64,000 nucleotides of DNA. It comes from Candidatus Zhuqueibacterota bacterium. Lineage in GTDB: Bacteria > Zhuqueibacterota > Zhuqueibacteria > Residuimicrobiales > Oceaniaggregativiventaceae. The stretch lies in assembly GCA_014728115.1 (NCBI GenBank), contig WJME01000125.1, positions 1-64,000 on the forward strand. Reading direction: 5' to 3'. Positions 2-22,168 of the stretch are shown here, piece by piece. The notes beneath the pieces were generated by a model, which saw only the letters and a list, made by a program, of their open reading frames with translations, was not told where the DNA came from and searched no databases. The stretch's first letter is position 1; every line of letters begins with the position of its first letter. The translations under genes and the position numbers were made by a program.

Positions 2-715
2 ACCAATTATGATTTGTTTTTGTCATTTTATGGCAACCGGTTAGGACTGTTGACATTGGGCGGATTTTACAAAGAGATCGAGGATTTGATATTCAGACGA
101 GAGGGTCACAAGATCCTGAACGCGGAAAAAGAAGGTTTTCCCCAGAATTTGCAGGGCTTTTGGCTCGACCGTCCTGAAAACAATCCTTATACGACCGAGG
201 TGCGGGGATTCGAGATCGAGTGGCAAACCAATTTGAACTGGTTGCCGAGCCCGTTTGACGGCTTTGTGATCAATGCCAATTATTCGCACATCTGGTCAGA
301 GACGCGTTTCCCACGTTCCTTTGTGATCTCTGAAAAGATTCCTGTGTTTCCGTTTGTCGAGACCACGGTGATCGATACTTTTCGGGTAGGAGATATGCCC
401 GACCAGGCCGATGATATCGCCAACCTCGCATTGGGCTATGACAAGGGCCCGTTATCTGCACGGCTGTCCATGCTTTATCAGGGTCGCACGCTCTCCCGTG
501 TCGGCGAACGTCCTGAACAGGATGGCTTTACTGCCGATCTGTTGCGCTTCGATCTCTCGGTGAAATACCGCCTGACGCCTCAAATCGGATTGTTTATGAA
601 TTACAACAATATCACCAACGAACCGGACGAATCGTATATGCTGAACCAGAGATATCTGACCGCGCGTGAATATTATGGCTGGACCATGGATTTGGGCATC
701 GGCTATGCGCTCTGA
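2..715 (+). CDS. TonB-dependent receptor, C-terminal part (5' truncated by window edge)
   Basis: The reading frame is open to the left edge, so only the last ~237 residues of a larger protein are present. They alternate polar and aromatic beta-strands in the style of the last strands of a TonB-dependent receptor barrel: GFEIEWQTNL, GFVINANYSH, LALGYDKGPLSARLSMLY, and a final segment with FMNYNNITNEP followed by an aromatic-rich last strand. The NNITNEP turn is characteristic of SusC-like and other TonB receptors. The likely role is active import of oligosaccharides or another large substrate across the outer membrane. The glycosidase block just downstream fits a saccharide substrate, but that is context only. 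The track start (TTG at 14) is an artefact of the window edge. A strong hairpin follows the stop. Confidence 0.8.
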   Translation, partial: TNYDLFLSFYGNRLGLLTLGGFYKEIEDLIFRREGHKILNAEKEGFPQNLQGFWLDRPENNPYTTEVRGFEIEWQTNLNWLPSPFDGFVINANYSHIWSETRFPRSFVISEKIPVFPFVETTVIDTFRVGDMPDQADDIANLALGYDKGPLSARLSMLYQGRTLSRVGERPEQDGFTADLLRFDLSVKYRLTPQIGLFMNYNNITNEPDESYMLNQRYLTAREYYGWTMDLGIGYAL

Positions 716-883: not shown

Positions 884-2377
884 ATGCTGAAAAAAACCAT
901 TATTGTTTGTCTTTTGTTCGTCTCTAGTCTTCAACTCTTTGCTCAGGATACACGACATGATGCCGTGCAAAGCGTTCGCGAACGCTATCCCGATGGCGTC
1001 GGCCGCTGGTGGGAGCTGTTTTTAAATGATGACCATCTCGTCGAGTCGACGAGGAACATCGAGATTGTCTCTGCCCAGGCACTCAAAATCGTCTCCGAGC
1101 CGGTGGTAAAGCAGGACAAGCCCTGGGAACTGGATCGGATCGGCTATACCAATGTGATCTATGATGCCGAAGAAAAGCTCTATAAAATGTGGTATCATAT
1201 CAAGACCGCTTTTTTCCCTTACGAGCCTGCCGGAGGGGTGCCAGGTGAAGAACTCTCTATGTGCTATGCCATATCCAGAGACGGCATTCATTGGGAAAAA
1301 CCCGAGCTCAATGTCATCCAACATGACGGGCAGCGCACCAATATTGTCTTCAGCGGTATCACCGGCATGAAGGCTGGTGCCTATTTTGTTCTCAAAGACT
1401 ATTCCGAGCCCGATCCCGGTAAACGATATAAAGTCTTGTTTAACTTTTGGGATTTCCAGGGCCGCGGTTTAGGTGTCGGCTGGTCTCCCGATGGCATCCA
1501 CTGGCAAGCCCCGCATCCCTATACCCTGATTCAGGGAGGATTCGATACGCATAATATCGCCTTTTGGGACAAAAAGTATGGCTGCTGGGTGGCCTATACC
1601 CGCCGCTGGCAATATGGTAAACGGCATATTTCACGCGCCACCAGTCCGGATTTGTTTCATTGGTCCCAGGATGTCACGGTCGAAGGACCGGACGAACGTG
1701 ATGATCCTGATGAGGACTTGTATACACCGGCCTGTTTCCAGCTCAAAGAAGCTCGTAATGTCTATATTATGGTAACAGGTGTATCCAATATCGAAGAGAA
1801 TATTGTAACGCCTCAACTGGCAGTGAGCCGTGACGGCATGGACTGGCATCGCTTTCGCAAGCCCTTTATTCGCAGGGGTAAGCCGGGCGAATGGGACAGC
1901 GGCGGCGGATATCCAATGGCTGCAGAAATCCCCTCCGGTGAAGATATGCTGTTCTATTATATCGGGTCAAAAGTGGCGCACGGAAAAGATCCGGGGGCAG
2001 GTATAGGCATTGCCTCGATCAAGCGGGATCGATATGTGGGGCTCAAAGCAGGTAAAGATGAGGGTCTCATTACGACACAACTGTTGGCCCTGACCCACCA
2101 TGGCGGAAAAATGCCGGACCGCGGTGTCCTCTGTGTCAATGCAAATGCCAAAGACGGCTATTTTAAAGTTGAAATTTTGGATCACAATGGCCATCCCATA
2201 CCCGGCTATGCTGCTGAGGATTGTATTCCCCTCAGCGGAGACAAGCTCGAACAACGTGTACGCTGGCAAGATCACAGAAATCTCTATCCGGTCCTCGGCA
2301 AACCGGTTCGATTGCGGTTCTATCTTAAAAATGCAACGATTTATGGATTTCATGTGGAAAGACATGATCGAAATTGA
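884..2377 (+). CDS. Secreted five-bladed beta-propeller glycosidase-like protein (copy 1)
   Basis: 497 residues with a Sec signal peptide (MLKKTIIVCLL...LFAQ, cleavage near residue 20). The body carries regularly spaced blade motifs of GH32/GH43/GH130-like propellers: SRDGIHW (~132), SPDGIHW (~201), TSPDLFHW (~252) and SRDGMDW (~315), with YTPACF and KMWYH between them. I infer a periplasmic or surface glycosidase, but no established family can be assigned by eye and the catalytic acids are not identified. The C-terminal ~100 residues look like a small beta-sandwich. A purine-rich GGATGGAG precedes the ATG. It is followed after 86 bp by a close paralog (2464-3954), so the two are a tandem duplication. 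They probably share an mRNA with the polysaccharide-lyase gene that follows. Confidence 0.65.
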   Translation: MLKKTIIVCLLFVSSLQLFAQDTRHDAVQSVRERYPDGVGRWWELFLNDDHLVESTRNIEIVSAQALKIVSEPVVKQDKPWELDRIGYTNVIYDAEEKLYKMWYHIKTAFFPYEPAGGVPGEELSMCYAISRDGIHWEKPELNVIQHDGQRTNIVFSGITGMKAGAYFVLKDYSEPDPGKRYKVLFNFWDFQGRGLGVGWSPDGIHWQAPHPYTLIQGGFDTHNIAFWDKKYGCWVAYTRRWQYGKRHISRATSPDLFHWSQDVTVEGPDERDDPDEDLYTPACFQLKEARNVYIMVTGVSNIEENIVTPQLAVSRDGMDWHRFRKPFIRRGKPGEWDSGGGYPMAAEIPSGEDMLFYYIGSKVAHGKDPGAGIGIASIKRDRYVGLKAGKDEGLITTQLLALTHHGGKMPDRGVLCVNANAKDGYFKVEILDHNGHPIPGYAAEDCIPLSGDKLEQRVRWQDHRNLYPVLGKPVRLRFYLKNATIYGFHVERHDRN

Positions 2378-2463: not shown

Positions 2464-3954
2464 ATGACCATTAAAAGAATTGTACTGATTTGTTTGCTCA
2501 CCGGCCTGGGAATTCAGGGCTTAAGCCAGGAAGCATCCGCACCATTTGATGAACAGTTTCCCGACGGGATCGGCAAGCACCGGGAACTCTTTTTACATGA
2601 CGACAAAATCGTGGAATCGCGTGAAAATGTTCAAATCGTGATCGCTCAGGCTGAAAAAATAACGCAACAGCCCGTTGTCAAACAAGATCAGCCCTGGGAG
2701 TTGGGGCATCCCAGGTGGATCAATGTGTTGTATGATGCTGAAGAACAAATGTATAAAATGTGGTATCAGTGCCTGGTGGAATATGAACCCTATTCGGCTG
2801 ATCCCGCAAAACGACTGGCCCTGCTTTATGCGACATCCAGGGATGGCATCAACTGGGAAAAGCCGCGATTCAACATCATAGAGTTTCAAGGAAAACCCAC
2901 CAATATCACGTTTTTTGCCGTACAAACGAAACAGGATTTCCGTGCCCCCTATGTGATCAAAGACTATTCCGATCCCGATCCGCAGGCTCGTTACAAAGCG
3001 CTTTTTCATTGTTGGGATTTTCGCGGACGCGGCCTGGGAGCAGCCATCTCTCCGGACGGGGTGCGATGGTCTGCTCCTCATGCTTATACAGTCATGCAGG
3101 GTGGTTATGATACCCATAACACTTTTTTCTGGGATCCGCATTATGGCAGTTATGTTGCCTATGTACGCCGCTGGCAATATGGCAAACGCCATATCGCGCG
3201 TGCCACGAGTCCGGATTTCTTTCACTGGTCCCATGATGTCACGGTGATGGGACCGGATGAACGCGATGCCCCGGATGAAGACTTGTATACGCCGGCGTGC
3301 TTTCGGTTAAAAGAGGTTCGAAATGTTTATATCATGGTGACCGGGGTGTTTGACGGTAAAAAAAATATCGTCACGCCCCAGCTCGCAGTCAGCCGTGACG
3401 GAGTGAACTGGACCCGGTTCAGGCAACCCTTTATCCCTTTCGGCAAGCCGGGAACCTGGGATGATGCCGGAGGCTGGCCCAGAGCCAGGGAAATTCCTGC
3501 CGGAGAGCATCAACTGTTCTATTATCAGGGGGTGCGTGCAGCCCATGCCGATCCTGACGATCATGGAAGTCAATCAGGGGTTGGGGTTGCTAAAATCAAA
3601 CGAGATCGCTATATTGGCCTCTCTGCCGCACAAAAGGGAACAGTGACAACAAAACTTGTCCGGTTGACCCATCATGGCGCCGTAGAACCCGACGGAGGCG
3701 TGATGGCCCTTAATGCAAGCGCTGTAAATGGCCAGATTCGCGTCGAAGTGCTGGATAGCGATAACAAGCCGATTCCAGGATTTTCTGTCATAGAGTGTTC
3801 ACCGATTACAGGAGATCAAACGGATTTTTATGTGCGGTGGAATAATCATCAGAATTTGTCTCCGGTGATCGGTAAACCTGTAAAATTGAAATTTTATTTA
3901 GAAAATGCAACTATTTATGGATTTCAGATCCTGCGAGATGATCCGGAACTTTAA
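2464..3954 (+). CDS. Secreted five-bladed beta-propeller glycosidase-like protein (copy 2)
   Basis: 496 residues, Sec signal peptide (MTIKRIVLICLL...GLSQE) and a GGAG ribosome site before ATG. It matches copy 1 along its whole length, including the blade motifs SRDGINW (~125), SPDGVRW (~197), TSPDFFHW (~248) and SRDGVNW (~309), and the nearly invariant stretch GPDERDxPDEDLYTPAC. The two clearly arose by duplication. Differences cluster in the region after the first blade motif (GKPTNITFF versus GQRTNIVFS) and in the last third, which would fit related but distinct substrates. The activity is inferred from fold only; it could equally be a non-catalytic sugar-binding propeller. Confidence 0.65.
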   Translation: MTIKRIVLICLLTGLGIQGLSQEASAPFDEQFPDGIGKHRELFLHDDKIVESRENVQIVIAQAEKITQQPVVKQDQPWELGHPRWINVLYDAEEQMYKMWYQCLVEYEPYSADPAKRLALLYATSRDGINWEKPRFNIIEFQGKPTNITFFAVQTKQDFRAPYVIKDYSDPDPQARYKALFHCWDFRGRGLGAAISPDGVRWSAPHAYTVMQGGYDTHNTFFWDPHYGSYVAYVRRWQYGKRHIARATSPDFFHWSHDVTVMGPDERDAPDEDLYTPACFRLKEVRNVYIMVTGVFDGKKNIVTPQLAVSRDGVNWTRFRQPFIPFGKPGTWDDAGGWPRAREIPAGEHQLFYYQGVRAAHADPDDHGSQSGVGVAKIKRDRYIGLSAAQKGTVTTKLVRLTHHGAVEPDGGVMALNASAVNGQIRVEVLDSDNKPIPGFSVIECSPITGDQTDFYVRWNNHQNLSPVIGKPVKLKFYLENATIYGFQILRDDPEL

Positions 3955-4010: not shown

Positions 4011-6473
4011 ATGATCCGGTTAAAGAATGATTTATCACATCAAACACACCATAATCTGTGTTGCAGAGCGGTAAATGAACGCCTTTGTCTGTATGGCTTT
4101 TTTTGTATAGTAATGGTTTTCATCGCGATGATTTTGCCAACCACAAGTTTGGCCCAACCTTTTCCCAAATCTCCGCACCCATGGAGAGCGGAATATGATA
4201 TTTCTCTGGAAAAATTTGAATTCAGCCATCCGATGACGGTGTTGAATCAGACTGAGCTTGAGACAGTCCGCCAGCATATTCAGAATGATATTGACCCCCA
4301 ATCTTCAACGTTCGACCTGATGATTCCAAAGGCAGATGAATTCCTTGAATTTGAACCCGACGCACCTGTGACGATGGATATCATGGGAGGATATGAGCCC
4401 AACTCCAATCTGGATGAAATGAGAGAGTGGCTGTGGCGCAACAGTCATGCCGCCTATACCTGCGCACTGGCCTATGCCCTCACCGATGAATCGAAATATG
4501 CTGAAAAGGCCAGAGAAGTGATTATGGATTGGGCCAATACCCATACCACCTTTACCGGAGGCGACAGGGGATTGCAGCTGGGATCGTGGTTTACGCCGTT
4601 ACTGGTCGCCGCCGATCTCATCTGGGATTATTCCGGATTTACACTCGCAGACAAGCAACAACTGCGAGACTGGGTCCGTATCAAGTGGCTCGACCAGGGG
4701 GATGTGCTCGACGTCATGCGCCGAAAAGACAACAACTGGAAAGACGCAGCACTCAAAGGCGTGTTTACCGCTGCCGTGATTCTGGAGGACAAAGAGCTGT
4801 TACAAGAAGCGATTGTACAGTTGATGAGTTTTTTCTATTCCCGCACCGATGCCTTTGTCAGGATTCCTGGTCCCGGATGGAAAATCAACAAGGACGACAG
4901 GGGAGTCCATTTGCCGCGCGAGGTCGTCCGCAATAATGGCCGAAGCGGAATCACCTATACCGCCTATGCATTGACGACCATGGTGCAAAATCTGGAAATG
5001 GCCAGATATGCCGGATTTGACTTTTGGCATAAAGAAACCGAACAAGGGGCAACCCTCAAAGAGGTGATCGAACAATATTTTCGATGGAACAGCCTCAGAG
5101 AGCGTTTCCCATGGGATCCGGGGGCCAAGAGGACCGATAAACGGTTGAATGCTTATGAGCTGGCCAATACCCATTTTTTGGTCGATGAACAGATGAAATC
5201 CTGGATTGAAAGCCAAAGACCGTTGAGAGGCAGGGAAGGGGATGCATGGATTACCCTGACCAAGGGCGATTTGCCCCTCACGCCGTTCGGCAGAATCATG
5301 TCGCCTGCAGAGGATACAGGTTTCCTGAGAACAGATACTCTATATATTGATATATTCGCCAATAACCCTGTGGATACACTCGAGTTGTTTATCGATGACA
5401 GTCTGGCTACCCGGGTCATCGATGCTGAGGGTACTCGATTTGAGACTCCTGTATTGCTGGAGAACTTGTCCGGCGGTGATTATTCTCTAAGGGCCAGGAT
5501 CGTCGACGAGTTGAACAATGTGTTTATCGATTCTGTTTCGTTTCGTGTGGGGTCTGCCTTTTATTCCATTACCGATTTATCAGACCCCAGTCTGGGCCGT
5601 ATCGCAATGGATCCCCCAGGCGGAACCTACCTGGACGGTACTGTGGTGTCGCTCACTGCTGTTCCCAAGCCGGGATACGAGTTTATCCATTGGGCGGGTG
5701 ATGTGAACTCGTGGACAGATACGCTTACAGTGGTCATCGAGTCGAATCTGACCCTAGAGACCACCTATCGCTGGTTTATACAAAAACTGCAATCCTTTAC
5801 ACTCCAGGCAGAGGATCAGACTCTTGCAGGGGGCGCTACCGCGGAGCAGAGTCATGAGGGATTCAATGGCTCGGGGTTTGTTTCATTTCCCTCGAGTGGC
5901 GGACAGGTCATCTATGAGAATATTCGTGGCGGCAACGGCGGAAGTGCCCGGTTAACGGTTCGCTGGGCAAACGGCGATGCTGGCCAAACCGGAATCCTGG
6001 TTGTGAACCAGGATACGTTAGATATTGAAATGAATACCACCGGCGGATGGGATGTCTGGAAAACACAGGATATTCCCATTATGCTCAATCCGGATTCTTT
6101 GAATGTTATCTCTTTCCAGTCCACCGGTGAAAGCTTTGCATTGCTGGATGAAATCACATTGACCTTGTCGACCCTGGTGGGTGTGAAAACGTCACCCAAC
6201 GCATCGGTGCACACATTCACTCTTGCCCAAAATTATCCCAATCCCTTTAATCCGGTCACCCAAATCGCCTTTGCTCTGAATAGCCGTCAGCATACACGCC
6301 TCAATATTTACAATACCCGTGGGCAACTCGTGAAAGAGTTGTTGAATAAACCCATGGATGCCGGTCAGCATATCATCACCTTTGATGCGCATGATTTGCC
6401 TTCAGGAGTCTATTTTTACAGACTTGCTACCAACAATTCGTTTCTGGAAAAAAAGATGTTATTGCTCAAATAG
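4011..6473 (+). CDS. Modular alginate-lyase-like secreted protein with CBM and sorting domain
   Basis: 820 residues. An extended N-region precedes a hydrophobic segment ending TTSLAQP (~50). Residues ~50-430 resemble the alginate lyase superfamily alpha/alpha barrel (PF05426-like): an NSHAAYTCALAYALT helix, an AREVIMDWA helix, GLQLGSWFTPLLVAADLIWD, and later an RNNGRSGITYTAYALT segment. Then come an Ig-like region (~440-515), a bacterial repeat (GTYLDGTVVSLTAVPKPGYEF, ~530-560), a CBM6/35-like module starting QAEDQTLAGG (~598-720), and a sorting domain (AQNYPNPFNPVTQIAF to KKMLLLK, 736-820). The expected product is a surface or secreted lyase acting on uronic-acid polysaccharide by beta-elimination. 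The substrate is not proven. No internal Met gives a better start. Confidence 0.75.
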   Translation: MIRLKNDLSHQTHHNLCCRAVNERLCLYGFFCIVMVFIAMILPTTSLAQPFPKSPHPWRAEYDISLEKFEFSHPMTVLNQTELETVRQHIQNDIDPQSSTFDLMIPKADEFLEFEPDAPVTMDIMGGYEPNSNLDEMREWLWRNSHAAYTCALAYALTDESKYAEKAREVIMDWANTHTTFTGGDRGLQLGSWFTPLLVAADLIWDYSGFTLADKQQLRDWVRIKWLDQGDVLDVMRRKDNNWKDAALKGVFTAAVILEDKELLQEAIVQLMSFFYSRTDAFVRIPGPGWKINKDDRGVHLPREVVRNNGRSGITYTAYALTTMVQNLEMARYAGFDFWHKETEQGATLKEVIEQYFRWNSLRERFPWDPGAKRTDKRLNAYELANTHFLVDEQMKSWIESQRPLRGREGDAWITLTKGDLPLTPFGRIMSPAEDTGFLRTDTLYIDIFANNPVDTLELFIDDSLATRVIDAEGTRFETPVLLENLSGGDYSLRARIVDELNNVFIDSVSFRVGSAFYSITDLSDPSLGRIAMDPPGGTYLDGTVVSLTAVPKPGYEFIHWAGDVNSWTDTLTVVIESNLTLETTYRWFIQKLQSFTLQAEDQTLAGGATAEQSHEGFNGSGFVSFPSSGGQVIYENIRGGNGGSARLTVRWANGDAGQTGILVVNQDTLDIEMNTTGGWDVWKTQDIPIMLNPDSLNVISFQSTGESFALLDEITLTLSTLVGVKTSPNASVHTFTLAQNYPNPFNPVTQIAFALNSRQHTRLNIYNTRGQLVKELLNKPMDAGQHIITFDAHDLPSGVYFYRLATNNSFLEKKMLLLK

Positions 6474-6489: not shown

Positions 6490-8298
6490 ATGTCCTTTGT
6501 TAAAACTCTTTCTCGCCGTTCGTTTATTTCTCATACCGTTCGCGGTCTTTTTTTGTCTGCCTTGACTCCACTGGTGGGCTTGACAAAATCGCCAATGGGT
6601 AAATCAACCGTACGAACAGCTAAAAAACTGTTCGCTACCACAGATTATTTTGGCAATATTTTCAAGTATCAATCCTTTATGGATGAGGCCCAATTGGATG
6701 ATTTGCATCGAATCCTTGCCTCTCTGGGAGTGACCCGGCATGAATGGCTGGTTGATACCACCGAAGGCATCTATGACCATTATCCGCATGGATTCGATCT
6801 CCTGGCCAAAGCGGTCGAGTCGGCTCATGCACATGGAATCGAATTTTTTGCCGTGGTCAAACCGTTTGAGGATGGTGGGTATCCTCCAATCCTGCCTTTG
6901 ACCATGCCTTTTCCCGAGGGTGCCGTAGCATTCAAAGATATGCGAGGTATTTCTCCGGTTGCCCGTCCCTTTGCAGCACAACATCCGTATACGAGTCTGA
7001 AACGGCGTCCGGGCACAGCAGAATGCAGGGGCCCGGTAAAGGCTATTCGTCTTGTCAAGAGCAATGACCAGCCTACACGGATAAAAGCAGAGCACCTGTC
7101 CATATGGACGAGTACCTCGAATAATGGCTTTGAGCGTTATCAGGGTACGGTTTCGTTTCGCGAACGCATTGAATGGCGCTTTCGGTTTCCCAAATGGCGG
7201 CCATGCAGGGTTCTGGCGTTGGAGGGATTAGAGATCCCCAAAGAACACGCTTATATTCTGGTGCGTTGTGCATTGGCTGATGGTGGAGGTGATTTTAGCA
7301 ATGAAAATGGTAACATCATCGAGCTCGTCGGAGCGGATGAAAAAATTCTACCCCATACCCTGAGCAGTGGCTCCATTTCCTGGGAAGATCATAAAACTAT
7401 ATATCACTCTGACATCATGAAACAATTGTTTCGCTATTTGCAACTGCCCGAGGTGCAGGCAGAAATTCGTGACACGGATAAAATGCAGGAGCATTATCGA
7501 GACTATTTCAGCTTTTACGAGAGTGATTTGGAACTCAGGGATTGGACCACCCTGGATCAAACCGGCTATGTCGCTGCAGCCTGTGGTAAACCGGAATATA
7601 TGCTGGGCAATCTTCATCCTATCTATCCGGAGGTGCGTGAGCATTGGCTCGAGCTGACCCGGTATTGCCTCGATCGTGGGGTGGATGGCGTCCATTTCAG
7701 GGTTGCAAACCATACCCGATCCCCTGAATACTGGGATTATGGGTTTAATGAACCTGTTCTGGAGGCTGCCAATGGCAAGACCGATACAGCCACGGTCAGC
7801 CGGATCAATGGCAATGCCTATACAGCCTTTCTTCGCCAGGCAGCAGAGCTTGTAAAAAGCCGGGGAAAGGCAATAGGGGTTCACCTGAATCCTCTCATGC
7901 TCAGGCCTGATGATCGCGATCGGCCGCCAGCGCTTCCTCCCAATTTCGAGTGGCAGTGGGACACCTGGATACGTGAGATAGCCGATGAATTCGAATTCCG
8001 GGGGGGCTATATGCAAAGGCCCTGGAACTTGAAAAAAGTGCTGGATATTTTCAGCCATGCAACGCAAGCTGCGAATAAACCTCTATATTATCAAAGCGAT
8101 TTTCATAGCATGACCAATACGGAAGGGCGCCTTCAGCGACGGATACAGGAAATCGAGCTCGTCAAAACGTATCCGGGGCTGGATGGCTATGTCTTGTATA
8201 CCACAAATAATTATACAAAAATCAATGAAAATAGAGAAATCGAGCTGTTGCCGTTTATGGAAAAAGCGATCAAGAATCACTATACAAGTAAAGAATAA
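6490..8298 (+). CDS. Tat-exported TIM-barrel-like protein of unrecognised family (copy 1)
   Basis: I start at ATG 6490, giving 602 residues, rather than the track start inside the previous gene. The new N-terminus is a twin-arginine leader (LSRRSFISHTVRGLFLSA). The body alternates strands and helices like a glycoside-hydrolase barrel: DDLHRILASLGVTRHEWLVD, FDLLAKAVESAHAHGIEFFA, then DGVHFRVANHT (~398) and GFNEPV (~417). A beta-rich inserted region lies at ~183-303. The Asn-Glu-Pro triplet is conserved in copy 2 and recalls the acid/base site of clan GH-A enzymes; that assignment is inference. QSDFHSM (~535) near the last strands is also conserved. I recognise no named family. The gene begins 16 bp after the lyase gene, so co-transcription is likely. 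Confidence 0.65.
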   Translation: MSFVKTLSRRSFISHTVRGLFLSALTPLVGLTKSPMGKSTVRTAKKLFATTDYFGNIFKYQSFMDEAQLDDLHRILASLGVTRHEWLVDTTEGIYDHYPHGFDLLAKAVESAHAHGIEFFAVVKPFEDGGYPPILPLTMPFPEGAVAFKDMRGISPVARPFAAQHPYTSLKRRPGTAECRGPVKAIRLVKSNDQPTRIKAEHLSIWTSTSNNGFERYQGTVSFRERIEWRFRFPKWRPCRVLALEGLEIPKEHAYILVRCALADGGGDFSNENGNIIELVGADEKILPHTLSSGSISWEDHKTIYHSDIMKQLFRYLQLPEVQAEIRDTDKMQEHYRDYFSFYESDLELRDWTTLDQTGYVAAACGKPEYMLGNLHPIYPEVREHWLELTRYCLDRGVDGVHFRVANHTRSPEYWDYGFNEPVLEAANGKTDTATVSRINGNAYTAFLRQAAELVKSRGKAIGVHLNPLMLRPDDRDRPPALPPNFEWQWDTWIREIADEFEFRGGYMQRPWNLKKVLDIFSHATQAANKPLYYQSDFHSMTNTEGRLQRRIQEIELVKTYPGLDGYVLYTTNNYTKINENREIELLPFMEKAIKNHYTSKE

Positions 8299-8328
8299 AG
8301 TTTGTTTATGATAAATAAGGACTGCTCT

Positions 8329-10128
8329 ATGTCAAAACCATCGAATCAGATCAACCGCCGTTCATTTTTAAGCCGCTCGTTATGCGGGATGGGAGCTCTG
8401 GCTGTTGGCCAGACCTCGGGATTGTTTGGCCGCACAGCTCTTGCCAGATCCAATTCTCATTCCAAAGCCTTGTATGCGACTTCAGATTATACCGATAATA
8501 TTTTGATCAACAGCGCCTTTATGGATCGGCAACAGCTGGATGATTTACACAAATGCCTGGCCGAAATAGGCGTGACCCGACACCAATGGATCGTGGATAC
8601 GTTCTGGAATATTTATGATGATTATCCACACGGATTCGATCTGTTAGCCAATGCGGTCGAATCGGCCCATGCGCATGGCATCGAATTCTATGCAGAAATC
8701 AAACCCTTTGAGAATGGGGGGTTTGGTGTCGCCTTTCCTCATTCCATGCCCTTTTCTGAGGATATGCAAGCGTTCAGGGATCTGCGAGGCATCTTTCCGG
8801 TTGCCGGACCCTTTGCCAGCCAAAATCCACATTTGTGTTTGAAGCGCAAGCCAGATACGCACAAAGTCGATGGCCCTGTCAAAACCATTCGACTGGTAAA
8901 ATGGAATGATTCTCCCACGCGCGTCAAGCCAGAACATCTCTCTATATGGTCGAGTTCTGCCAATAATCATTTTAAGCAATATAACGGACCCGTAGAGTAC
9001 AAGGAAACCATTGACTGGCGTTTTCGCTTTCCCAAATGGCGGCAATCCCGCATCCTGTCTATGGAAGGTCTGGATCTGCCTGAGGATCATCACTATGTTC
9101 TCATCAAATGTTCTTTGGCTGATCGAGGCGGTGATTTTAGAAACGAATGCGGTAATATCCTCGAACTCGTGAATGGAGATGGCGAGTTGATACCGCATAC
9201 GCTCGGCACAGGCAGGGGATCTCTGGAGGAGCATAACAAGGGTTTTTATCAGTCTGAATTTATCAGCCGGATGTTGCCCTATCTTCAAAATAAAAGGGTG
9301 CAACAGGAGATTCGTGATCCTCAAAAAATGCTCGATCATTACCGCGAGTTTTATAATTTTGGAGAGTATTATCGCATGGATGACTGGATCACCCTTGACC
9401 AGGAAGGCGTGCTGGTCGCGGCGTGTAGCAAGCCTGAATATATGCTGGGCAGTCTTCATCCCATCTATCCTGAGGTGCAAAACCTTTGGCTCGACCGGGT
9501 ACGCTATTGCCTGGATCGTAATGTGGATGGAATGAATTTCAGAGTCGCCAACCACACCCGGCTGGCCAATTACTGGGAATATGGATTTAATGAACCGGTT
9601 CTTGAAAAAGCCAATGGCAAGACCGATTATACCACGATCAGCCGAATCAATGGTGATGCCTATACGCAATTCCTGCGCAAAGCCCGACAGATGATCAAGG
9701 CCAAAGGTAAAGGATTGACTATCCATCTTCACGCCGGCATGTTGAGACCTGATGACCGGCCCGGACGCCTGAGTTCCCTGCCACCGAATTTCGAATGGCA
9801 GTGGAAGACCTGGGCCAAAGAAATCGCCGATGAGCTGGAATTCCGGGGTGGGTTCATACTCAGACCCTGGAACAAAGATCAGGTATTGGATATCTACAGC
9901 TCGTATGCAGATAAAGTGAACAAGCCGTTTCATTACCAGAGTGACTTTCACAGTATGACCAATGACGAGGGCCGCAGACAATGCAAGCAACACGAGGTCG
10001 AGCTGGTCAAAAGCCATCCAGGCATCGATGGATTCGTGCTATACGAGACAGCCAATTATACCCGGCTGAATGAAAAGGGGAGGATTGAAAATAAACCGTA
10101 TATTGTGGAGGTCATGAAAAACTATTAG
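8329..10128 (+). CDS. Tat-exported TIM-barrel-like protein of unrecognised family (copy 2)
   Basis: 599 residues from ATG 8329, chosen because AAGGA lies 7-9 bases upstream. The TTG (8302) and ATG (8308) starts lack this. The leader is NRRSFLSRSLCGMGALAVG, a clear Tat signal. It aligns end to end with the preceding gene: SAFMDRQQLDDLH, HGFDLLANAVESAHAHGIEF, the inserted beta domain, the MNFRVANHTR strand, YGFNEPVLEKANGKTD, and HYQSDFHSMTNDEG. The shared, duplicated Glu of GFNEP and Asp of QSDFH are the best catalytic candidates. The tandem arrangement and position beside a lyase and two propellers point to polysaccharide catabolism. No biochemical function can be read directly. Confidence 0.65.
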   Translation: MSKPSNQINRRSFLSRSLCGMGALAVGQTSGLFGRTALARSNSHSKALYATSDYTDNILINSAFMDRQQLDDLHKCLAEIGVTRHQWIVDTFWNIYDDYPHGFDLLANAVESAHAHGIEFYAEIKPFENGGFGVAFPHSMPFSEDMQAFRDLRGIFPVAGPFASQNPHLCLKRKPDTHKVDGPVKTIRLVKWNDSPTRVKPEHLSIWSSSANNHFKQYNGPVEYKETIDWRFRFPKWRQSRILSMEGLDLPEDHHYVLIKCSLADRGGDFRNECGNILELVNGDGELIPHTLGTGRGSLEEHNKGFYQSEFISRMLPYLQNKRVQQEIRDPQKMLDHYREFYNFGEYYRMDDWITLDQEGVLVAACSKPEYMLGSLHPIYPEVQNLWLDRVRYCLDRNVDGMNFRVANHTRLANYWEYGFNEPVLEKANGKTDYTTISRINGDAYTQFLRKARQMIKAKGKGLTIHLHAGMLRPDDRPGRLSSLPPNFEWQWKTWAKEIADELEFRGGFILRPWNKDQVLDIYSSYADKVNKPFHYQSDFHSMTNDEGRRQCKQHEVELVKSHPGIDGFVLYETANYTRLNEKGRIENKPYIVEVMKNY

Positions 10129-10410: not shown

Positions 10411-11988
10411 ATGCAAAGACCGATCGTGTTATGGATAATTCATGTTTTTTTATTTGCGACCACGCTTTGCTGGTCGGGCGAGTATTCGACAAGGTATGGT
10501 CAAATTGCAACAGAGTGCGTCAAGACGCTTATGCAATACGGTACCGACCGCTATGGCCCGCAATCCGCTCCGGTTCTGGTCAGTATCCTCGATACCCGGA
10601 CCCTGGAATGTCCGGCTGATCCCGAATCCTGTGACGAATATTTCCGCGTCACCCGGCGGGAACGCCGTAATCCTGCCGGGGCAAATCTGCTTTTTGATAT
10701 GCCTCTTTTGAAAACCATGAAGGTCATGGCCAACCTGAGCCATGATGATTCTATCACTGCGTTTATGAATGAATATGTGCGCTATTACCTGGAAAATTTT
10801 GTTGATGACAAGGGATTCTTTTGGTGGGGCTGGCATCGACATGTGGATGTCTATACCGACGAGATGACCGGACATAGCGGCAGACATCACGAGATTCATG
10901 CCATTCACGGGATCGATTGGGATCTTTTGTGGCAGATCGATCGTCAGGCCGTCATCCGTGAAATCGAGGCGATCTGGCAGTGGCATGTGATCGATAAATC
11001 GACCGGCGAAATCAACCGGCATGGCGATGGAAAACCGGGATGCGATTTCAGCATGAGTGCCGGCGCTTTTATGGAAGCCTTTGCGTTTCTCTATAGCAAA
11101 ACCAATGATCCGGCATGGCTCGAACGAACCCACCTCATCGCAAATTATTATTGGCAACGTCGCAACCCTGAAACAGATCTGTTCCCTGAACGACCCAATG
11201 CCGGTCAGTACCGTTTTGACGGCAGCAGCTTTGTCACTTCGATTACCGGTCCCTATTGTCATTCTCTGTTCAGGGTCTATGAATATACCGGTCAGGAGTG
11301 TTTTCGGGATCAGGCTAAAGCTCTTCTCAGTGCCTATGCAAACCTGGGATTCGATCCACAGAGCGGAAAATTCTGGGGTGCCTTGCAGCTGGATGGATCC
11401 CCCATTCCCGGTCCACGAATCTATACGGAGAACCTGGACTCGGCCGAAGGATATGCCGCAGCCCAGCCTCGCGGTTTTCTCGATCTGTGGGAACCCTATA
11501 TCGCCGGCTATCAATACCCGATCTATACCGCACAAAATTATGCCAATGCCTATCGGATCACAGGAAACGAGCTGTTCCTGGATCGGGCTAAACGGTTTGC
11601 AGACTGGATCGAGCGGGTTCCTCCGGGCAGTCCGGAAACAGAACAATCATGGTATCAGGAATACAGCCGCGGCCCAGGCCAGCAAGGCACATACGCAGGT
11701 AAATACGGCCGGGCTATCTCGTTTTTTCTGCAAATGTTCGCCCTTGCCAATGAACAGCGATTTATCGACTCTGCCAGGTCTTTGGCTGACGAGGCGATCG
11801 AAAAATTGTATGCAAACGGATTGCTAAAAGGCCATCCGGCCAAGCCAACCTATGAAGCCGTGGATGGTGTAGGGTATTTGCTCTATGCCCTCATCCAGCT
11901 CGATCAGATCATTGAGATGATTAACAGTACGGATCATCAACAAGAGGTTAATCTGAGCGGGTTAGAGATAGAGCTCGATAACTGGTAG
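10411..11988 (+). CDS. Secreted alpha/alpha-barrel (six-hairpin-like) carbohydrate-active protein
   Basis: 525 residues. A signal peptide (MQRPIVLWIIHVFLFATTLCWSG) is preceded by AGAGGAG at ideal spacing. The rest is a series of paired helices with aromatic and acidic tips: GFFWWGWHRHVDVYTDE, HHEIHAIHGIDWDLLW, SMSAGAFMEAFAFLY, TGPYCHSLFRVYEY, GTYAGKYGRAISFFLQ. This is the pattern of six-hairpin glycosidases, lyases and epimerases. I cannot assign a family. A lyase or unsaturated-uronide hydrolase would fit the neighbours, but this is inference. The single gene is transcribed with the block but separated from it by 282 bp. Confidence 0.6.
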   Translation: MQRPIVLWIIHVFLFATTLCWSGEYSTRYGQIATECVKTLMQYGTDRYGPQSAPVLVSILDTRTLECPADPESCDEYFRVTRRERRNPAGANLLFDMPLLKTMKVMANLSHDDSITAFMNEYVRYYLENFVDDKGFFWWGWHRHVDVYTDEMTGHSGRHHEIHAIHGIDWDLLWQIDRQAVIREIEAIWQWHVIDKSTGEINRHGDGKPGCDFSMSAGAFMEAFAFLYSKTNDPAWLERTHLIANYYWQRRNPETDLFPERPNAGQYRFDGSSFVTSITGPYCHSLFRVYEYTGQECFRDQAKALLSAYANLGFDPQSGKFWGALQLDGSPIPGPRIYTENLDSAEGYAAAQPRGFLDLWEPYIAGYQYPIYTAQNYANAYRITGNELFLDRAKRFADWIERVPPGSPETEQSWYQEYSRGPGQQGTYAGKYGRAISFFLQMFALANEQRFIDSARSLADEAIEKLYANGLLKGHPAKPTYEAVDGVGYLLYALIQLDQIIEMINSTDHQQEVNLSGLEIELDNW

Positions 11989-12235: not shown

Positions 12236-13624
12236 ATGACTGAATTTCCAAAGCATTTTATCTGGGGAACCGCCACCTCGAGCTATCAAATCGAAGGGGC
12301 CTGGCTGGAAGGCGGTAAGGGATTGAGTATCTGGGATGCATTTTGTCATACTCCTGGAAAAATCAAGCATGGGCAAACAGGGGATGTGGCCAGCGATTTT
12401 TATCATCGCTATAAAGACGATATCGCCCTGATGGCACAGCTGGGATATAAAAATTACCGGTTTTCACTTAGCTGGCCACGCATCCAGCCCACCGGATATG
12501 GCAAGCCCAATCCCGAAGGAATACGCTTCTATTCTGACCTGATCGATACCCTTCTCGAACACGGGATCACCCCCTGGATCACGCTTTATCACTGGGATCT
12601 GCCGTTGGCGCTGCAATTAGAACACCATGGATGGCTCAATCCCAAAACCGCTGAATTTTTTGTTGACTATGCCGATATTTGCTTTGAGCACTTTGGCGAC
12701 CGGGTCAAGCATTGGATCACCCTGAATGAACCGTGGGTAGTGGCTATTCTGGGATTTCACGATGGCGCCATGGCCCCAGGCCGGTCTTCGAATCATGAGC
12801 CCTATCTGGTCGGTCATCAACTGCTTCGCGCCCACGGCCTGACCGTCGAACGCTATCGCCAAAAATTTCAGTCCCGCCAAAAGGGCATGATCAGCCTGAG
12901 CAACAACTGTGACTGGCGTGAGCCCCTGACCGATTCACCCCAGGATCAGGCAGCTGCACAACGGGCTGTAGAATTCTTTTTGGGTTGGTTCGCAGATCCG
13001 GTGTTTTTAGGAGACTATCCGGAGGTGATGCGGTCACGGCTCGGAGATCGACTGCCGCAATTTACCGATAAAGACCGAGAGTTGATCCATGGCTCCGGTG
13101 ACTTTTTTGGTCTCAATCACTATACAACCCTGTATTGTGCGCAGCGCAAAGAAGGAGAAGCTGTGGATCCGTTTACATTCGGAAACGGCGGCATCATGGA
13201 GGATCAGGATATCAAGCTGGTTCTCGATCCCTCCTGGGAAACGACCACCATGGGCTGGGCCGTGGCCCCCTGGGGCTGTCGCAAGCTGTTGAACTGGATC
13301 GATAAACGATATGATCATCCCCCGATCCTTTTGACGGAAAACGGCTGCGCTTTACCCGATCAGGTCAAAGAGGGCAGGGTCAATGACCAGAAACGCATCG
13401 AATTCCTGAAATCCTATATCCTGGAATGTCATCAGGCAATACAGCAGGGAATCGATTTGCGAGGGTATTTTTGCTGGTCTTTTATGGATAATTTTGAATG
13501 GTCTTTGGGATTTTCACAAAGATTTGGATTGGTTTTTATCGATTATAACAATCTCAAACGCTATCCCAAAGACTCTGCGTTTTGGTATGGAAATGTCATT
13601 CGTAATAACGTGATTCAAGCATAG
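12236..13624 (+). CDS. GH1 beta-glucosidase
   Basis: 462 residues, the usual length of bacterial GH1 enzymes, without a signal peptide, so cytoplasmic. Hallmarks: the N-terminal FIWGTATSSYQIEGA signature, YRFSLSWPRI, the acid/base motif LNEPW (Glu ~165), and the nucleophile motif LLTENGC (Glu ~368). The C-terminal WSFMDNFEWSLGFSQRFG motif is intact. It retains beta-D-glycosides of short oligosaccharides as likely substrates; glucose versus galactose or fucose specificity is not predicted. An AAGGAAGG ribosome site precedes ATG 12236. It likely completes intracellular breakdown of sugars released by the upstream secreted enzymes. Confidence 0.93.
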   Translation: MTEFPKHFIWGTATSSYQIEGAWLEGGKGLSIWDAFCHTPGKIKHGQTGDVASDFYHRYKDDIALMAQLGYKNYRFSLSWPRIQPTGYGKPNPEGIRFYSDLIDTLLEHGITPWITLYHWDLPLALQLEHHGWLNPKTAEFFVDYADICFEHFGDRVKHWITLNEPWVVAILGFHDGAMAPGRSSNHEPYLVGHQLLRAHGLTVERYRQKFQSRQKGMISLSNNCDWREPLTDSPQDQAAAQRAVEFFLGWFADPVFLGDYPEVMRSRLGDRLPQFTDKDRELIHGSGDFFGLNHYTTLYCAQRKEGEAVDPFTFGNGGIMEDQDIKLVLDPSWETTTMGWAVAPWGCRKLLNWIDKRYDHPPILLTENGCALPDQVKEGRVNDQKRIEFLKSYILECHQAIQQGIDLRGYFCWSFMDNFEWSLGFSQRFGLVFIDYNNLKRYPKDSAFWYGNVIRNNVIQA

Positions 13625-18274: not shown

Positions 18275-19084
18275 CTATTGTAAATCATCGATTCTTATAA
18301 CCTGCCCCACACCGAGGTCTATGGCCCGTTCTTTATACGTGTTGGCAAAGGCTTTTATTGCCTTGTCTCCGGTGCAGTGAGAAGCTCCGACATAGTTCAC
18401 CCCAAGCGATTGAAAATTCTGAATAATGTCCGCGATTTCTGTGTCATTTTTATCACGCAGATGAAATCCACCCATAACGAGAAAGATCTGTTTGGATAAA
18501 AGTGTTTTGGCTTGTTTGACAATATCGACAATGCCGGGATGGGCACATCCGGTGATCACGATCAGGCCTTTAGAGGTGTCGATGATCAGCGATTGTTCTG
18601 CAATTCGGCTCCCCATTTTGCCGGTGGTATAGACATGCTCACAGATTTTTCGGGATTCTAAAGAACGATGTGCTTTGAGATTGGGAAACCGTTCATTGGC
18701 ATCCAGGTCCTGGGAAAAAGAATCCAGGAGGTAAAGATCTACCCGGTCATTTTGTCCGAGAAAGGCTTGTAATCCGCCGGTATGATCCCAATGGTCATGG
18801 GAAATCACAAGGGATTCGATTTGCTGTGGATCCAAATTCATTTTTTCCATATTGCGTAGCAGGATATCACCATCTGCACCGGTATCGAAAAGCAGTGTGT
18901 CTTCCATACCTTGTATAACACAGGCAAATCCCCAGGAAGTTTCGAGTCCTTGTTTGTATTCATAATTATCAAAGACCACGGTGATGGTGAGTGAGTCCTG
19001 TGCTTTTGCTTGATCAGGCATAAAGAATCCTCCCGTTAATATCACTAGACTTGCAACCCAAAAAAATATCCGAGGAGCGGTCAT
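18275..19084 (-). CDS. Metallo-beta-lactamase-fold hydrolase, exported
   Basis: 269 residues from ATG 19084, whose first base is the last base of the upstream TGA stop (TGATG). A GGGAG motif sits at proper spacing; GTG 19087 is the alternative. Signal peptide-like N-terminus, MTAPRIFFWVASLVILTGG ... AKAQ. The metal-binding motif SHDHWDHTGG is intact, and VITGCAHPGIVDIV and GGFHL supply further ligands. This combination is typical of the MBL subgroup annotated as dihydropterin-ribofuranosyl-aminobenzene-phosphate synthase-like. The substrate is unknown and the exported location is unusual for that biosynthetic label. It is translationally coupled to the DUF89 gene. Confidence 0.75.
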   Translation of the reverse strand: MTAPRIFFWVASLVILTGGFFMPDQAKAQDSLTITVVFDNYEYKQGLETSWGFACVIQGMEDTLLFDTGADGDILLRNMEKMNLDPQQIESLVISHDHWDHTGGLQAFLGQNDRVDLYLLDSFSQDLDANERFPNLKAHRSLESRKICEHVYTTGKMGSRIAEQSLIIDTSKGLIVITGCAHPGIVDIVKQAKTLLSKQIFLVMGGFHLRDKNDTEIADIIQNFQSLGVNYVGASHCTGDKAIKAFANTYKERAIDLGVGQVIRIDDLQ

Positions 19085-19959
19085 CACGTCTCCCTTACTT
19101 TAACGTTGGACCTGTCAGGCTTTTGGTAAAGGATAAAGTCACCGGTTTGCGCGCCGATCCGATTGCCGATGACCGGGCATTTGACGGTCAGGAGAAAATA
19201 AATGGATTTGTCAATATCCAACAGTCCTTCCAGATTTCCCTGACCTTTGGCAATGACAACATCCGCGTTGCTGACCTCTTGTTTGAATTCATCCGAGGTG
19301 AATTCCCAAACCGCTCCCGGCGAGTCGTCACCGGTGGTCATGACTCGTGCCAGCTTGCCGAGTTCAATTGTTTGCGCGTCCTCGAGCGTCGCATCATTGA
19401 TCGTGGGCCCGGAACGCACGACGAATGTGAGATGGGGATGATTCAGGGTTTCGATAAACAATTTGTCGAGCACGATCTCACCGCAATTATCCCCTATATA
19501 GAGAACAGATTCTGCTGCTTTCAATTCAGTTGCGAGGCTCTGGGAATCGTCTATGGCCAGGGTCGCGTGCATGACTTTTTCAATGGTCTCGATGAGATCC
19601 AGTTGATTTTGCGGTCCGAAATCGATGACATTGCCGGCGATGGCCAGTCGCATGACGGTATTCAGAGGGTTTGGGGAATCTTTTACCCGCTGTTTGAATT
19701 CCTCATAAAGACCGAGCATTTTTTCGTTACTCTGTTTCTTGATCTCCTGATAAGGATCCGGGTCCTCGAGAATGGTTCGTATCATACGATGCATCTCGCG
19801 TCCGATGGCCGGCGGTGATTGAGTATAGTCTGTCCGCGCCAGAAATCCCAGTAATTGTCGCATCGCCTCTTGTTTTTTGTCATCCGGAACGAGTCCGTTT
19901 TGCAATAATCTCAACAGACTATTGACAATGCAGGGTATACAATCGAGTGAAAGGTGCAT
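19084..19959 (-). CDS. DUF89/ARMT1-like metal-dependent phosphatase family protein
   Basis: 291 residues, start ATG 19959 with AAAGGA upstream. It shows the DUF89 signatures: an N-terminal LDCIPCIVNSLL cysteine motif, LYIGDNCGEIVLDK (the DNxGE metal/phosphate site) and ADVVIAKGQGNLEGL. Family members use Mn, Co or Ni to hydrolyse phosphometabolites (damage-control phosphatases). The bacterial/archaeal Cys-containing subgroup is less well characterised. It overlaps the downstream MBL gene, and the ~200 bp upstream contains the folded RNA candidate described separately. Confidence 0.85.
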   Translation of the reverse strand: MHLSLDCIPCIVNSLLRLLQNGLVPDDKKQEAMRQLLGFLARTDYTQSPPAIGREMHRMIRTILEDPDPYQEIKKQSNEKMLGLYEEFKQRVKDSPNPLNTVMRLAIAGNVIDFGPQNQLDLIETIEKVMHATLAIDDSQSLATELKAAESVLYIGDNCGEIVLDKLFIETLNHPHLTFVVRSGPTINDATLEDAQTIELGKLARVMTTGDDSPGAVWEFTSDEFKQEVSNADVVIAKGQGNLEGLLDIDKSIYFLLTVKCPVIGNRIGAQTGDFILYQKPDRSNVKVRET

Positions 19960-20041
19960 AAAAATCCTTTGGGAAACGATAAAGAATCATTCAAGAGTCA
20001 AACTGCCAAAATACAAGGCAAAACGTATTCGTTGGAATTAA

Positions 20042-20130
20042 AACACCAGCCCCGCGATCGGCTCATGCCGTTCATGAATCCTTGAACAACAACCGGAAGG
20101 AGAGGTGTTGAAATGTTGTTCTCGCGGGGC
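20042..20130 (-). ncRNA. Candidate structured RNA: three-way junction with possible pseudoknot
   Basis: Read on the minus strand, the segment between the DUF5320 stop and the DUF89 start can fold as follows. P1 is GCCCCGCGA/UCGCGGGGC (9 bp, 20122-20130 with 20049-20057). P2 stacks directly on it: GAACAACA/UGUUGUUC (8 bp, 20114-20121 with 20084-20091). P3 is a CGGC-AUGA-GCCG hairpin (20059-20070). The P2 loop contains AACACC (20104-20109), complementary to GGUGUU just 3' of P1 (20042-20047), which would form a pseudoknot. The P2 loop also holds CCUCUCC, complementary to a ribosome-binding sequence. It may be a leader of the DUF89-MBL operon or a 3' structure of the PadR operon. I do not recognise a known riboswitch. 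Confidence 0.5.
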
Positions 20131-20156
20131 ATGGCATCTCTTATGGAAGAACAGAG

Positions 20157-20513
20157 TTATTCGTTTTCTGATTTTGATTCCAGATCCTTGATACGGCTCT
20201 CGATATTTTTGAGAGCGGATTGTAAATGATCAGCCTCATTCTTTAGCTCTTGTAACTCGTGTTCTTTTGTGAGATATTCAGGCGCAGGGGCGTCTTGCCA
20301 ATAGGGACCGGCAGCCCATCCCGGAACACCGGTCGTATAATAGCGATGACGAAATCCCCGGCCATGGCCTCGACCGAATCCCATTCCCATTCCCCGGCCA
20401 CGACCAAATCCAGGATTGGCGAATCCGGGGGATCTGTATCCTGAGCAATATCCCATTGCCCGTCCTGTTCTGGATCCCATTCCTGCGGGACCGCTTCTAT
20501 CTCCACCTGGCAT
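20157..20513 (-). CDS. DUF5320-type small Gly/Arg-rich protein
   Basis: 118 residues. The true start is ATG 20513, five bases after an AGGAGG site; the track ORF runs far upstream through the neighbouring gene. The N-terminus MPGGDRSGPAGMGSRTGRAMGYC is the usual opening of DUF5320 proteins. A Gly/Arg/Phe/Met-rich stretch follows, then a coiled-coil tail (TKEHELQELKNEADHLQSAL, ~80-115). Such proteins are found beside NifX-like and MinD-like Fe-S/Mo proteins in anaerobes, but no function is established. Last gene of the PadR-led cluster. Confidence 0.8.
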   Translation of the reverse strand: MPGGDRSGPAGMGSRTGRAMGYCSGYRSPGFANPGFGRGRGMGMGFGRGHGRGFRHRYYTTGVPGWAAGPYWQDAPAPEYLTKEHELQELKNEADHLQSALKNIESRIKDLESKSENE

Positions 20514-20556
20514 CATAACCTCCTTGTTTTTTTTAGTTCTATTTGATCTCCAGTGG

Positions 20557-20883
20557 TTATGCCTTTTGATCTTTGTTGAGAAACGATTCCACGGCTTTTT
20601 TGACCGTACCTGCAGCGTCTGTGACGATCTCGATGCCAGCTGTATCGAGAGCTTGTTTTGCTTTATGTCCCACCTCTCCGGTGATGACGACCTGAGCACC
20701 ATTTTTAGAGATTTCCCGGGCAGCAGCAGGACCCGCGCCACCACTTGCTTCGCTGGCAGGATTGGAAAAGGCACTGAATTTCATGGTCTCTGAATCGACG
20801 AGAACAAAATAGGCACAACGTCCGAATCTCTGATCAACCTGAGCCGATAGAGATCCTCCTTTGGCGGTTACGGCAATTTTCAT
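20557..20883 (-). CDS. NifX/NifB-type (dinitrogenase iron-molybdenum cofactor) domain protein 1
   Basis: 108 residues, essentially one PF02579 domain: MKIAVTAKGG, VDQRFGRCAYFVLVD, GAQVVITGEVGHKAKQAL and GIEIVTDAAGTVKKAVE. Members bind Fe-S or Mo-containing clusters, including FeMo-cofactor precursors in NifX/NifB and a Mo-Cu cluster in the orange protein of Desulfovibrio. No nitrogenase gene is nearby, so nitrogen fixation is not implied. An ORP-like or metal-trafficking role fits the cluster better. AAAGGTAA precedes the start; 43 bp separate it from the DUF5320 gene. Confidence 0.88.
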   Translation of the reverse strand: MKIAVTAKGGSLSAQVDQRFGRCAYFVLVDSETMKFSAFSNPASEASGGAGPAAAREISKNGAQVVITGEVGHKAKQALDTAGIEIVTDAAGTVKKAVESFLNKDQKA

Positions 20884-20926
20884 TTTCGTTTACCTTTGAT
20901 TTATTTTTCAACAGATTTCCATTGGA

Positions 20927-21280
20927 TTAGTGATCGCATGCATTTTGTCCTGTGGTTAATGTTCCTCGTGCATGTTCGAGAACAATGATTTCCGGATTTT
21001 CGGCATCTGCGCCGGTAATTACATCGATCCCTTGCTGGCTAAAGAGCTCTTTTGCCCGCATTCCCATCCCCCCGGCAATGACCAGGTGTACCTTTTCCTG
21101 GGCAAGCCATTGGGGCAGAATCCCGGGCTCATGCGGGGGAGGGGTTTTTAATTGTGAATTTAGAATTTTGCCGCTCTCTGCATCGAGGTCAATGATTGCA
21201 AACTGTTGGCAGTGACCAAAGTGTTGGCATAATCGTCCGTCAATGACCGGTAGGGCATAACGGCGAATAGAATTGGACAT
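20927..21280 (-). CDS. NifX/NifB-type domain protein 2
   Basis: 117 residues, a second PF02579 domain: YALPVIDGRLCQHFGHCQQFAI, HLVIAGGMGMRAKELF, GIDVITGADAENPE, and a C-terminal NACDH. The CQHFGHC region and terminal Cys-Asp-His supply extra thiol/imidazole groups that could bind a metal cluster. The start ATG is placed directly after the stop of the upstream ATPase (TGAATG), with its AGGAGG inside that gene, so the two are translationally coupled. It differs enough from copy 1 to suggest a separate role. Confidence 0.87.
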   Translation of the reverse strand: MSNSIRRYALPVIDGRLCQHFGHCQQFAIIDLDAESGKILNSQLKTPPPHEPGILPQWLAQEKVHLVIAGGMGMRAKELFSQQGIDVITGADAENPEIIVLEHARGTLTTGQNACDH

Positions 21281-22168
21281 TCAAGCCTCCTGGTTGATGG
21301 GTTCTTTTACCTGTATTCTCGCGGATAAGGATTGCCACAATTGTACAAACAGATCCTGTAAAGGTCCGTTATCGAATTCTGTGATGGTCTTTCCTGCGAT
21401 TTGGGCTTTCGTGAGCGCCGAGTCGTAGGGGATTTTGCCAGCGACTACAATCCCATTGTCCTGACAAAAGATTTCGATTGACCCGGTCAGCTCTTTATTG
21501 ATATCTGCTCTGTTGATGCAAACCGTCATGGGGATCTTGAAATGGTTGCATAACTCAATCGTTCGCTTCATATCATGAATGGCTGAGCGAGACGGCTCGG
21601 TCACAATAAGGGCATGGTCTGCTCCTCCGATCGCAGCAATCACCGGACACCCGATTCCCGGGGGTCCATCAACCAACAGAAACTCTGCTTTCTGTTTTTC
21701 TGCAACCTCGCGTGCTTGCTTGCGCACTTTAGTCACCAGTTTGCCCGAGTTTTCTTCAGCAATTCCCAGTTTGGCATGAACCATGGTGCCGAAACGGGTT
21801 TTGGAAATGAACCAGTCTCCGCTTTTTCTGGGATTGAAATCGATGGCTTTTTCCGGACAATTCCAAACACAAACTCCACAGCCTTCACAGGCAATGGGTT
21901 GAATGCGGAAATCCACTGTAATCGCATCAAAGCGACACACCTGCAGGCATTGACCACATTGGCTGCATCGCCTAGGATCGATCTCTGCAACCTTGCCTCC
22001 GATAAAGGATTCTTGTTGCACCACTTTGGGTGCCATGACAAGATGTAAATCAGCAGCATCGACATCACAGTCTGCCAGAACCGCATGTTTGGCCAGACCG
22101 GCGAATGCAGCCGTGATGCTGGTTTTTCCCGTGCCTCCTTTACCGCTAATGATGACCAGTTCTTTCAT
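21281..22168 (-). CDS. MinD-superfamily P-loop ATPase with inserted ferredoxin domain (1)
   Basis: 295 residues from ATG 22168; the track TTG at 22180 is less likely. It has a deviant Walker A ISGKGGTGKTS at the N-terminus and a 2[4Fe-4S] ferredoxin insert with motifs CSQCGQCLQVC and CEGCGVCVWNC (~65-110). The Walker-like VDGPPGIGCPVI follows. This MinD/Mrp-ferredoxin architecture is found in anaerobes next to orange-protein and NifX-type genes and is thought to assist Fe-S or Mo cluster assembly using ATP. The 5' end overlaps the upstream paralog by 23 bp, so co-expression is tight. Confidence 0.9.
   Translation of the reverse strand: MKELVIISGKGGTGKTSITAAFAGLAKHAVLADCDVDAADLHLVMAPKVVQQESFIGGKVAEIDPRRCSQCGQCLQVCRFDAITVDFRIQPIACEGCGVCVWNCPEKAIDFNPRKSGDWFISKTRFGTMVHAKLGIAEENSGKLVTKVRKQAREVAEKQKAEFLLVDGPPGIGCPVIAAIGGADHALIVTEPSRSAIHDMKRTIELCNHFKIPMTVCINRADINKELTGSIEIFCQDNGIVVAGKIPYDSALTKAQIAGKTITEFDNGPLQDLFVQLWQSLSARIQVKEPINQEA

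Follow-up and report, generated by a model that had tools for sequence, protein, structure and literature searches.

A rare family of putative Tat-exported barrel proteins related to GHL10, with an inserted beta domain and different pocket residues

Two adjacent genes of Candidatus Zhuqueibacterota bacterium encode members of a rare, mostly Tat-exported family of predicted TIM barrels that appears to share its barrel ancestry with GHL10, from which it differs by a beta domain between strands 3 and 4 and by a putatively rebuilt active site. Profile comparisons indicate that the family barrel is homologous to, and a remote sister of, the GHL10 barrel; the latter is known, and new here is a sister family that differs in its pocket residues and carries an inserted domain. 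Barrel enzymes encoded in polysaccharide-uptake loci can mostly be assigned to numbered families. We somewhat favour the view that these proteins are periplasmic carbohydrate-cleaving enzymes that use the GHL10-derived barrel to act on anionic oligosaccharides, with catalytic carboxylates among D52, E127 and E571 and with K124, R404 and H408 as the binding residues for the charged group, the exact residues being less secure than the overall reading.

A tandem pair in a polysaccharide locus

The DNA analysed, referred to here as the window, is a stretch of 64,000 nucleotides (assembly GCA_014728115.1, contig WJME01000125.1, positions 1–64,000). The tandem pair of 602- and 599-residue proteins reported by the first-pass annotation is present as two open reading frames, P0001 and P0002 (Table 1), the products of which are 58% identical across 593 residues (E = 0). 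An AAGGA-like site lies immediately 5′ of the P0002 start, and an alternative in-frame ATG at 8308 would add seven residues. As the gaps are short (16 bases 5′ of P0001 and 30 bases between the two genes) and all genes from position 884 on lie on the plus strand, the arrangement suggests that the pair and the genes upstream share a single transcript. A chance origin is excluded by the five intact family copies in this genome, which lie on four contigs, and by the relatives in other genomes and phyla.

Tat export of the pair, also proposed initially, is probable, given an RR-x-F leader motif in both proteins and a TatC encoded in the genome; the match to the TIGR01409 leader profile is below its cut-off (11.2 versus 16.7 bits). 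TatC is encoded in all seven of the member-holding genomes that were checked. Several family members have no leader and may be cytoplasmic. In two arrays (L009:8291-11803 and L057:8374-11812), a leaderless member lies directly 5′ of one with a Tat leader, as if one copy acts in the cytoplasm and the other outside.

The lyase and propeller context read from the sequence was borne out by the flanking genes, which encode the end of a TonB receptor, two GH32N-like propellers, an alginate-lyase-family protein, a PL2/GH76-like protein and a GH1 enzyme. Elsewhere in the window are a DUF4962 or heparinase II/III-like protein (32068-34485) that may be another uronate lyase; a 786-residue open reading frame without any Pfam match (53032-55392) that adjoins a sulfatase (55508-57295); and a protein with an ARMT1-like damage-control phosphatase domain adjoining a metallo-beta-lactamase-fold protein (19084-22180), with a 4Fe-4S ParA-type ATPase near.

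Table 1. Features of the gene pair and its surroundings, in window positions
Feature	Position	Strand	Remarks
TonB-dependent receptor, C-terminal end (contig starts here)	2..715	+	Nearest, among loci compared, to member-adjoining receptors in G048/G049
GH32N-like propeller protein	884..2377	+	Homologue adjoins family member in L060
Second GH32N-like propeller protein	2464..3954	+	Itself without a Pfam match; resembles L060 homologue
Alginate-lyase-family protein, CBM6-like domain and type IX secretion tail	4011..6473	+	Possible homologue beside member in L059
P0001	6490..8298	+	602 aa; family member; Thr571, against Glu in the other 29 of 30 aligned members
Twin-arginine leader of P0001 (LSRRSFIS...)	6505..6585	+	From sequence; genome encodes TatC
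K124-P-F-E127, end of strand 3	6859..6870	+	Cwp19 equivalent N-P-Y-Arg132
Inserted beta domain of P0001 (residues 172-305)	7003..7404	+	Between strands 3 and 4; kept in distant relatives; no confident fold match
R404-V-A-N-H408, end of strand 4	7699..7713	+	Cwp19 Asp195-Asp196; R and H invariant in 30
Y570-T571 of P0001, end of strand 8	8197..8202	+	Y-E in all 29 other members
P0002	8329..10128	+	599 aa; family member; full conserved set including Glu571 equivalent
Twin-arginine leader of P0002 (INRRSFLS...)	8350..8430	+	From sequence; genome encodes TatC
Inserted beta domain of P0002	8845..9249	+	Between strands 3 and 4
Alpha/alpha-barrel protein	10411..11988	+	Matches Pectate_lyase_2, GH76 and GH127 models
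GH1 glycosidase	12236..13624	+	

A GHL10-related barrel with an inserted domain

GHL10 comprises glycosidases and lytic transglycosylases, some of which, Cwp19 among them, act on peptidoglycan, and includes DigH of Escherichia coli. Searched singly, P0001 and P0002 matched no family in Pfam or NCBIfam and gave no match to PF02638 (GHL10) at E ≤ 1, and P0001 alone retrieved only chance matches among PDB sequences; with 12 aligned members, Pfam and NCBIfam returned Tat-leader and chance matches and nothing else. A publication search that missed most subscription journals and did not cover CAZy found no description of the family.

Profiles built from the family recover a relationship. The best PDB sequence for a 22-member profile is Cwp19 (5oq2, GHL10; E 6.2e-6), and an insert-free family profile aligned by hhalign to six GHL10 proteins of the same genome at 98.7% (E 3e-16, 222 columns) with a score of 124, and none of 40 column-shuffled controls scored above 19. 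One distant relative, L044, exceeds the Pfam GHL10 cut-off (33.4 versus 27.9 bits) and is the sole one to pass. The barrels share their order over strands 1 to 6, an N/K-P-Y/F motif after strand 3 and a P-x-PEVR...DG signature ahead of strand 4; this family differs in its insert and in the lack of a direct Pfam match for P0001 and P0002. The insert and the divergence thus hide the GHL10 relationship from ordinary searches. The initial view that the pair belongs to no named glycoside-hydrolase family is supported by the single-protein searches of Pfam, NCBIfam and PDB, and the barrel has a remote sister in GHL10.

An AlphaFold2 model built on a 12-sequence alignment (pLDDT 81.4, pTM 0.81) predicts a beta/alpha barrel with strands 1–3 at residues 46-52, 83-88 and 118-123 and strands 4–8 at 400-403, 461-466, 500-504, 532-535 and 566-570. 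After strand 3 the barrel gives way to a region rich in beta strands (183-296) and then to helices (298-335), in agreement with the beta insertion at about 183-303 that had been called from the sequence; the whole insert between strands 3 and 4 is about 180 residues long. A discoidin or CBM32-type identity for the insert, considered from a by-eye likeness, is unproven: its model (pLDDT 78) gave no match at E < 0.1 and its profile retrieved no PDB sequence.

Foldseek comparison of the whole model with the PDB returned weak barrel matches, on top of which were GH14 beta-amylases, barrels with long loops (E 2.5e-5). These share only 8% identity and a TM score of at most 0.40 by query, and at strands 4 and 7 no Glu is conserved in the family. 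There is a weak local likeness to GH13 around the strand-4 DG motif (best E 0.0017 for Pfam Alpha-amylase and about 0.1 for neopullulanase), but the nucleophile Asp after strand 4 is R404 here and no E/D pair is conserved on strands 5 and 7.

Conserved residues and the candidate active site

Across 30 aligned members, K124, R404, H408, Y417, W490, D499 and Y570 are invariant, position 127 is Glu or Asp throughout, and D52 and E571 are each kept in 29. The pocket-type residues in this set are D52, K124, E127, R404, H408, Y417, W490, Y570 and E571, and the model places D52, K124-E127, R404-H408 and E571 at or just past strand ends. The invariant basic residues, together with the conserved carboxylates at the strand ends, suggest that the pocket receives an anionic sugar.

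The catalytic residues nominated by the first-pass annotation fare differently. Its GFNEPV and QSDFHSM motifs are indeed present in P0001 and P0002 but vary among relatives: position 421, the Glu of GFNEP, is E in 18 members, D in 6, K in 3, A in 2 and P in 1, and position 537, the Asp of QSDFH, is D in 13 of the 30, so that neither is conserved as a catalytic residue would be. With them goes the clan GH-A assignment. The N-E-P string does resemble the strand-4 motif of GH-A retaining glycosidases, in which its Glu would be the acid/base, but it sits in a loop after strand 4; strand 4 itself runs directly into R404 rather than an Asn-Glu pair, and strand 7 is followed by variable residues where the nucleophile Glu would stand. 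We regard a GH-A enzyme as highly improbable.

Comparison with Cwp19 points to a pocket of exchanged charge. The catalytic pair of GHL10 is unresolved (PMC5765458), and the authors of the Cwp19 study draw attention to Arg132, which follows strand 3, and to Asp196 together with Asp195, which follow strand 4 (PMC5765458). At strand 3, N-P-Y-R132 of Cwp19 corresponds to K124-P-F-E127, so that the family has an acidic residue in place of the Arg in every member. At strand 4, D-G-V-H-F-D195-D196 corresponds to D-G-V-H-F-R404-V405, with the Asp replaced by an invariant Arg; the equivalence of R404/V405 with D195/D196 is an ungapped reading of the alignment, into which HMMER puts a gap. With E127 opposite Arg132 and R404 opposite Asp195, both charges would therefore be reversed relative to Cwp19. 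At strand 8, Cwp19 has Phe367-Ser368 (PMC5765458) where the family has Tyr-Glu, and invariant His408 is an addition relative to GHL10. Among the six GHL10 proteins of the same genome, the strand-4 Asp is kept in five and the Arg132 equivalent is missing in most.

P0001 is the sole exception at position 571, with Thr for Glu. Its loss of E571, the loss of the GHL10 strand-4 Asp and the presence of three paralogues in some loci could indicate a decayed GHL10 barrel serving as a non-catalytic, surface or periplasmic scaffold for glycan binding. This seems improbable, as the nine pocket-type residues are nearly invariant across several phyla at pairwise identities down to about 21%, and the P0001 branch in the tree is no longer than that of P0002, so that P0001 appears to be under constraint despite its loss of E571.

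Distribution, neighbourhoods and possible function

The family consists of about 20 close relatives and a distant Planctomycetota branch of 450–850-residue proteins with lower scores. A single-sequence scan of genome contigs found no relatives, whereas alignment-based scans found them in Cytophagales, Membranihabitans maritimus, two Prolixibacteraceae and one planctomycete. Members occur in 3 of 82 genomes of the window's phylum (its own and two others), in 1 of 295 in a sample of one Bacteroidota order and clearly in 1 of 395 in a Bacteroidia sample, the positive genome in each of the latter two being the centre of its sample; weak Bacteroidia matches confined to strands 1-3 (E 1e-4 to 1e-8), probably GHL10 proteins, were left out of this count. 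Viral contigs held no relatives and hence give no sign of a phage link. More distant Planctomycetota proteins (L041:955-2307, L042:976-3129 and L046:967-3117) have GHL10-like barrels that lack the beta insert, and in two of these proteins the barrel is fused to HEAT repeats.

Two or three members lie in tandem at L007, L008, L009 and G049. Matching members recur across arrays in the tree (L007c/L008a/L009b and L007b/L008c), implying either old arrays or their transfer as whole units. Recent tandem duplication does not account for P0001 and P0002, as the partner of P0002 in the tree is a paralogue on contig C240 (support 99), with P0001 branching beside the two.

Around members in general lie SusC/TonB receptors, FecR-like regulators, SusD, GH43, GH92, GH2, sulfatase, BNR propellers and heparinase- or alginate-lyase-like proteins; the Bacteroidota loci combine SusC/SusD, FecR-like regulators, GH92, GH2, GH43 and heparinase-like proteins with phytase, a PHP-domain protein, a calcineurin-like phosphoesterase and GDPD. 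The SusC and FecR identities rest partly on similarity between loci and on our own reading. A conserved Bacteroidota locus (L007:2189-18405, L008:740-15605 and L009:1890-15509) contains SusC/SusD, an approximately 410-residue protein without a Pfam match, two or three members, a beta-propeller phytase, a calcineurin-like phosphoesterase and a PHP-domain protein, suggesting a phosphorylated glycan or inositol phosphate as its substrate.

A PF00149 calcineurin-like phosphoesterase lies within 6 kb of all seven testable clusters outside the window's own genome (expected, 0.03–0.09 each), a count that reflects association and not seven independent events because the loci are partly homologous. The window's own genome has no PF00149 gene near any of its four member loci, nor on their four contigs, so that a phosphate substrate is not general and a general phosphate link was rejected for this genome. 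The phosphatase neighbours (phytase, PHP, calcineurin-like phosphoesterase and GDPD) and the D/E/E/H set at the strand ends would suit a metal-dependent or phosphoester-acting barrel, such as an isomerase, epimerase or phosphodiesterase, working on a phosphorylated sugar or inositol-phosphate headgroup. Homology to GHL10 glycosidases, the own-genome loci without phosphatases and the lack of matches to metal-enzyme families make this quite unlikely.

A polysaccharide lyase, in which H408 or a tyrosine would be the base for beta-elimination of a uronic-acid glycoside and R404 and K124 would neutralize the carboxylate, draws on the invariance of these residues and of Y417 and Y570, on the alginate-lyase- or heparinase-like neighbours in the window, L006 and L059, and on Cwp19 being a lytic transglycosylase rather than a simple hydrolase (PMC6016235). 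We consider it unlikely, as the strictly conserved D52, E127 and E571 exceed the needs of a lyase and several loci have GH92, GH2 and phosphatases but no lyase.

In the carbohydrate-cleaving role that we prefer, the neighbouring TonB-dependent transporter would import anionic oligosaccharides, and the family enzymes would cleave their glycosidic bond, most likely in the periplasm. K124, R404 and H408 would bind a uronate, sulfate or phosphate group, and the catalytic pair would come from D52, E127 and E571. P0002 would be the complete enzyme, and P0001, without E571, would have an altered mechanism or be a binding or auxiliary paralogue. Because strands 4 and 7 lack a canonical acid pair, the reaction could be an elimination or another non-hydrolytic one. 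More tentatively, this may be a new glycoside-cleaving family of the GHL10 lineage that has exchanged its pocket charges (Glu in place of Arg on strand 3, Arg in place of Asp on strand 4, and a Glu on strand 8) and cleaves phosphorylated or otherwise anionic glycans by a non-canonical mechanism, its tandem paralogues being divided between active and altered forms. The new polysaccharide-active family first proposed for the pair thus stands as an undescribed family in polysaccharide loci but not as an isolated one, its barrel being a remote sister of GHL10, and cleavage is predicted.

The opposite charges at two strand ends of the GHL10 barrel would amount to a natural experiment on sugar cleavage by that barrel, and an array in which one member carries E571T provides an internal comparison. 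These proteins, if active, would form a new carbohydrate-enzyme family, the substrate class of which is suggested by its phosphatase, lyase and sulfatase neighbours.
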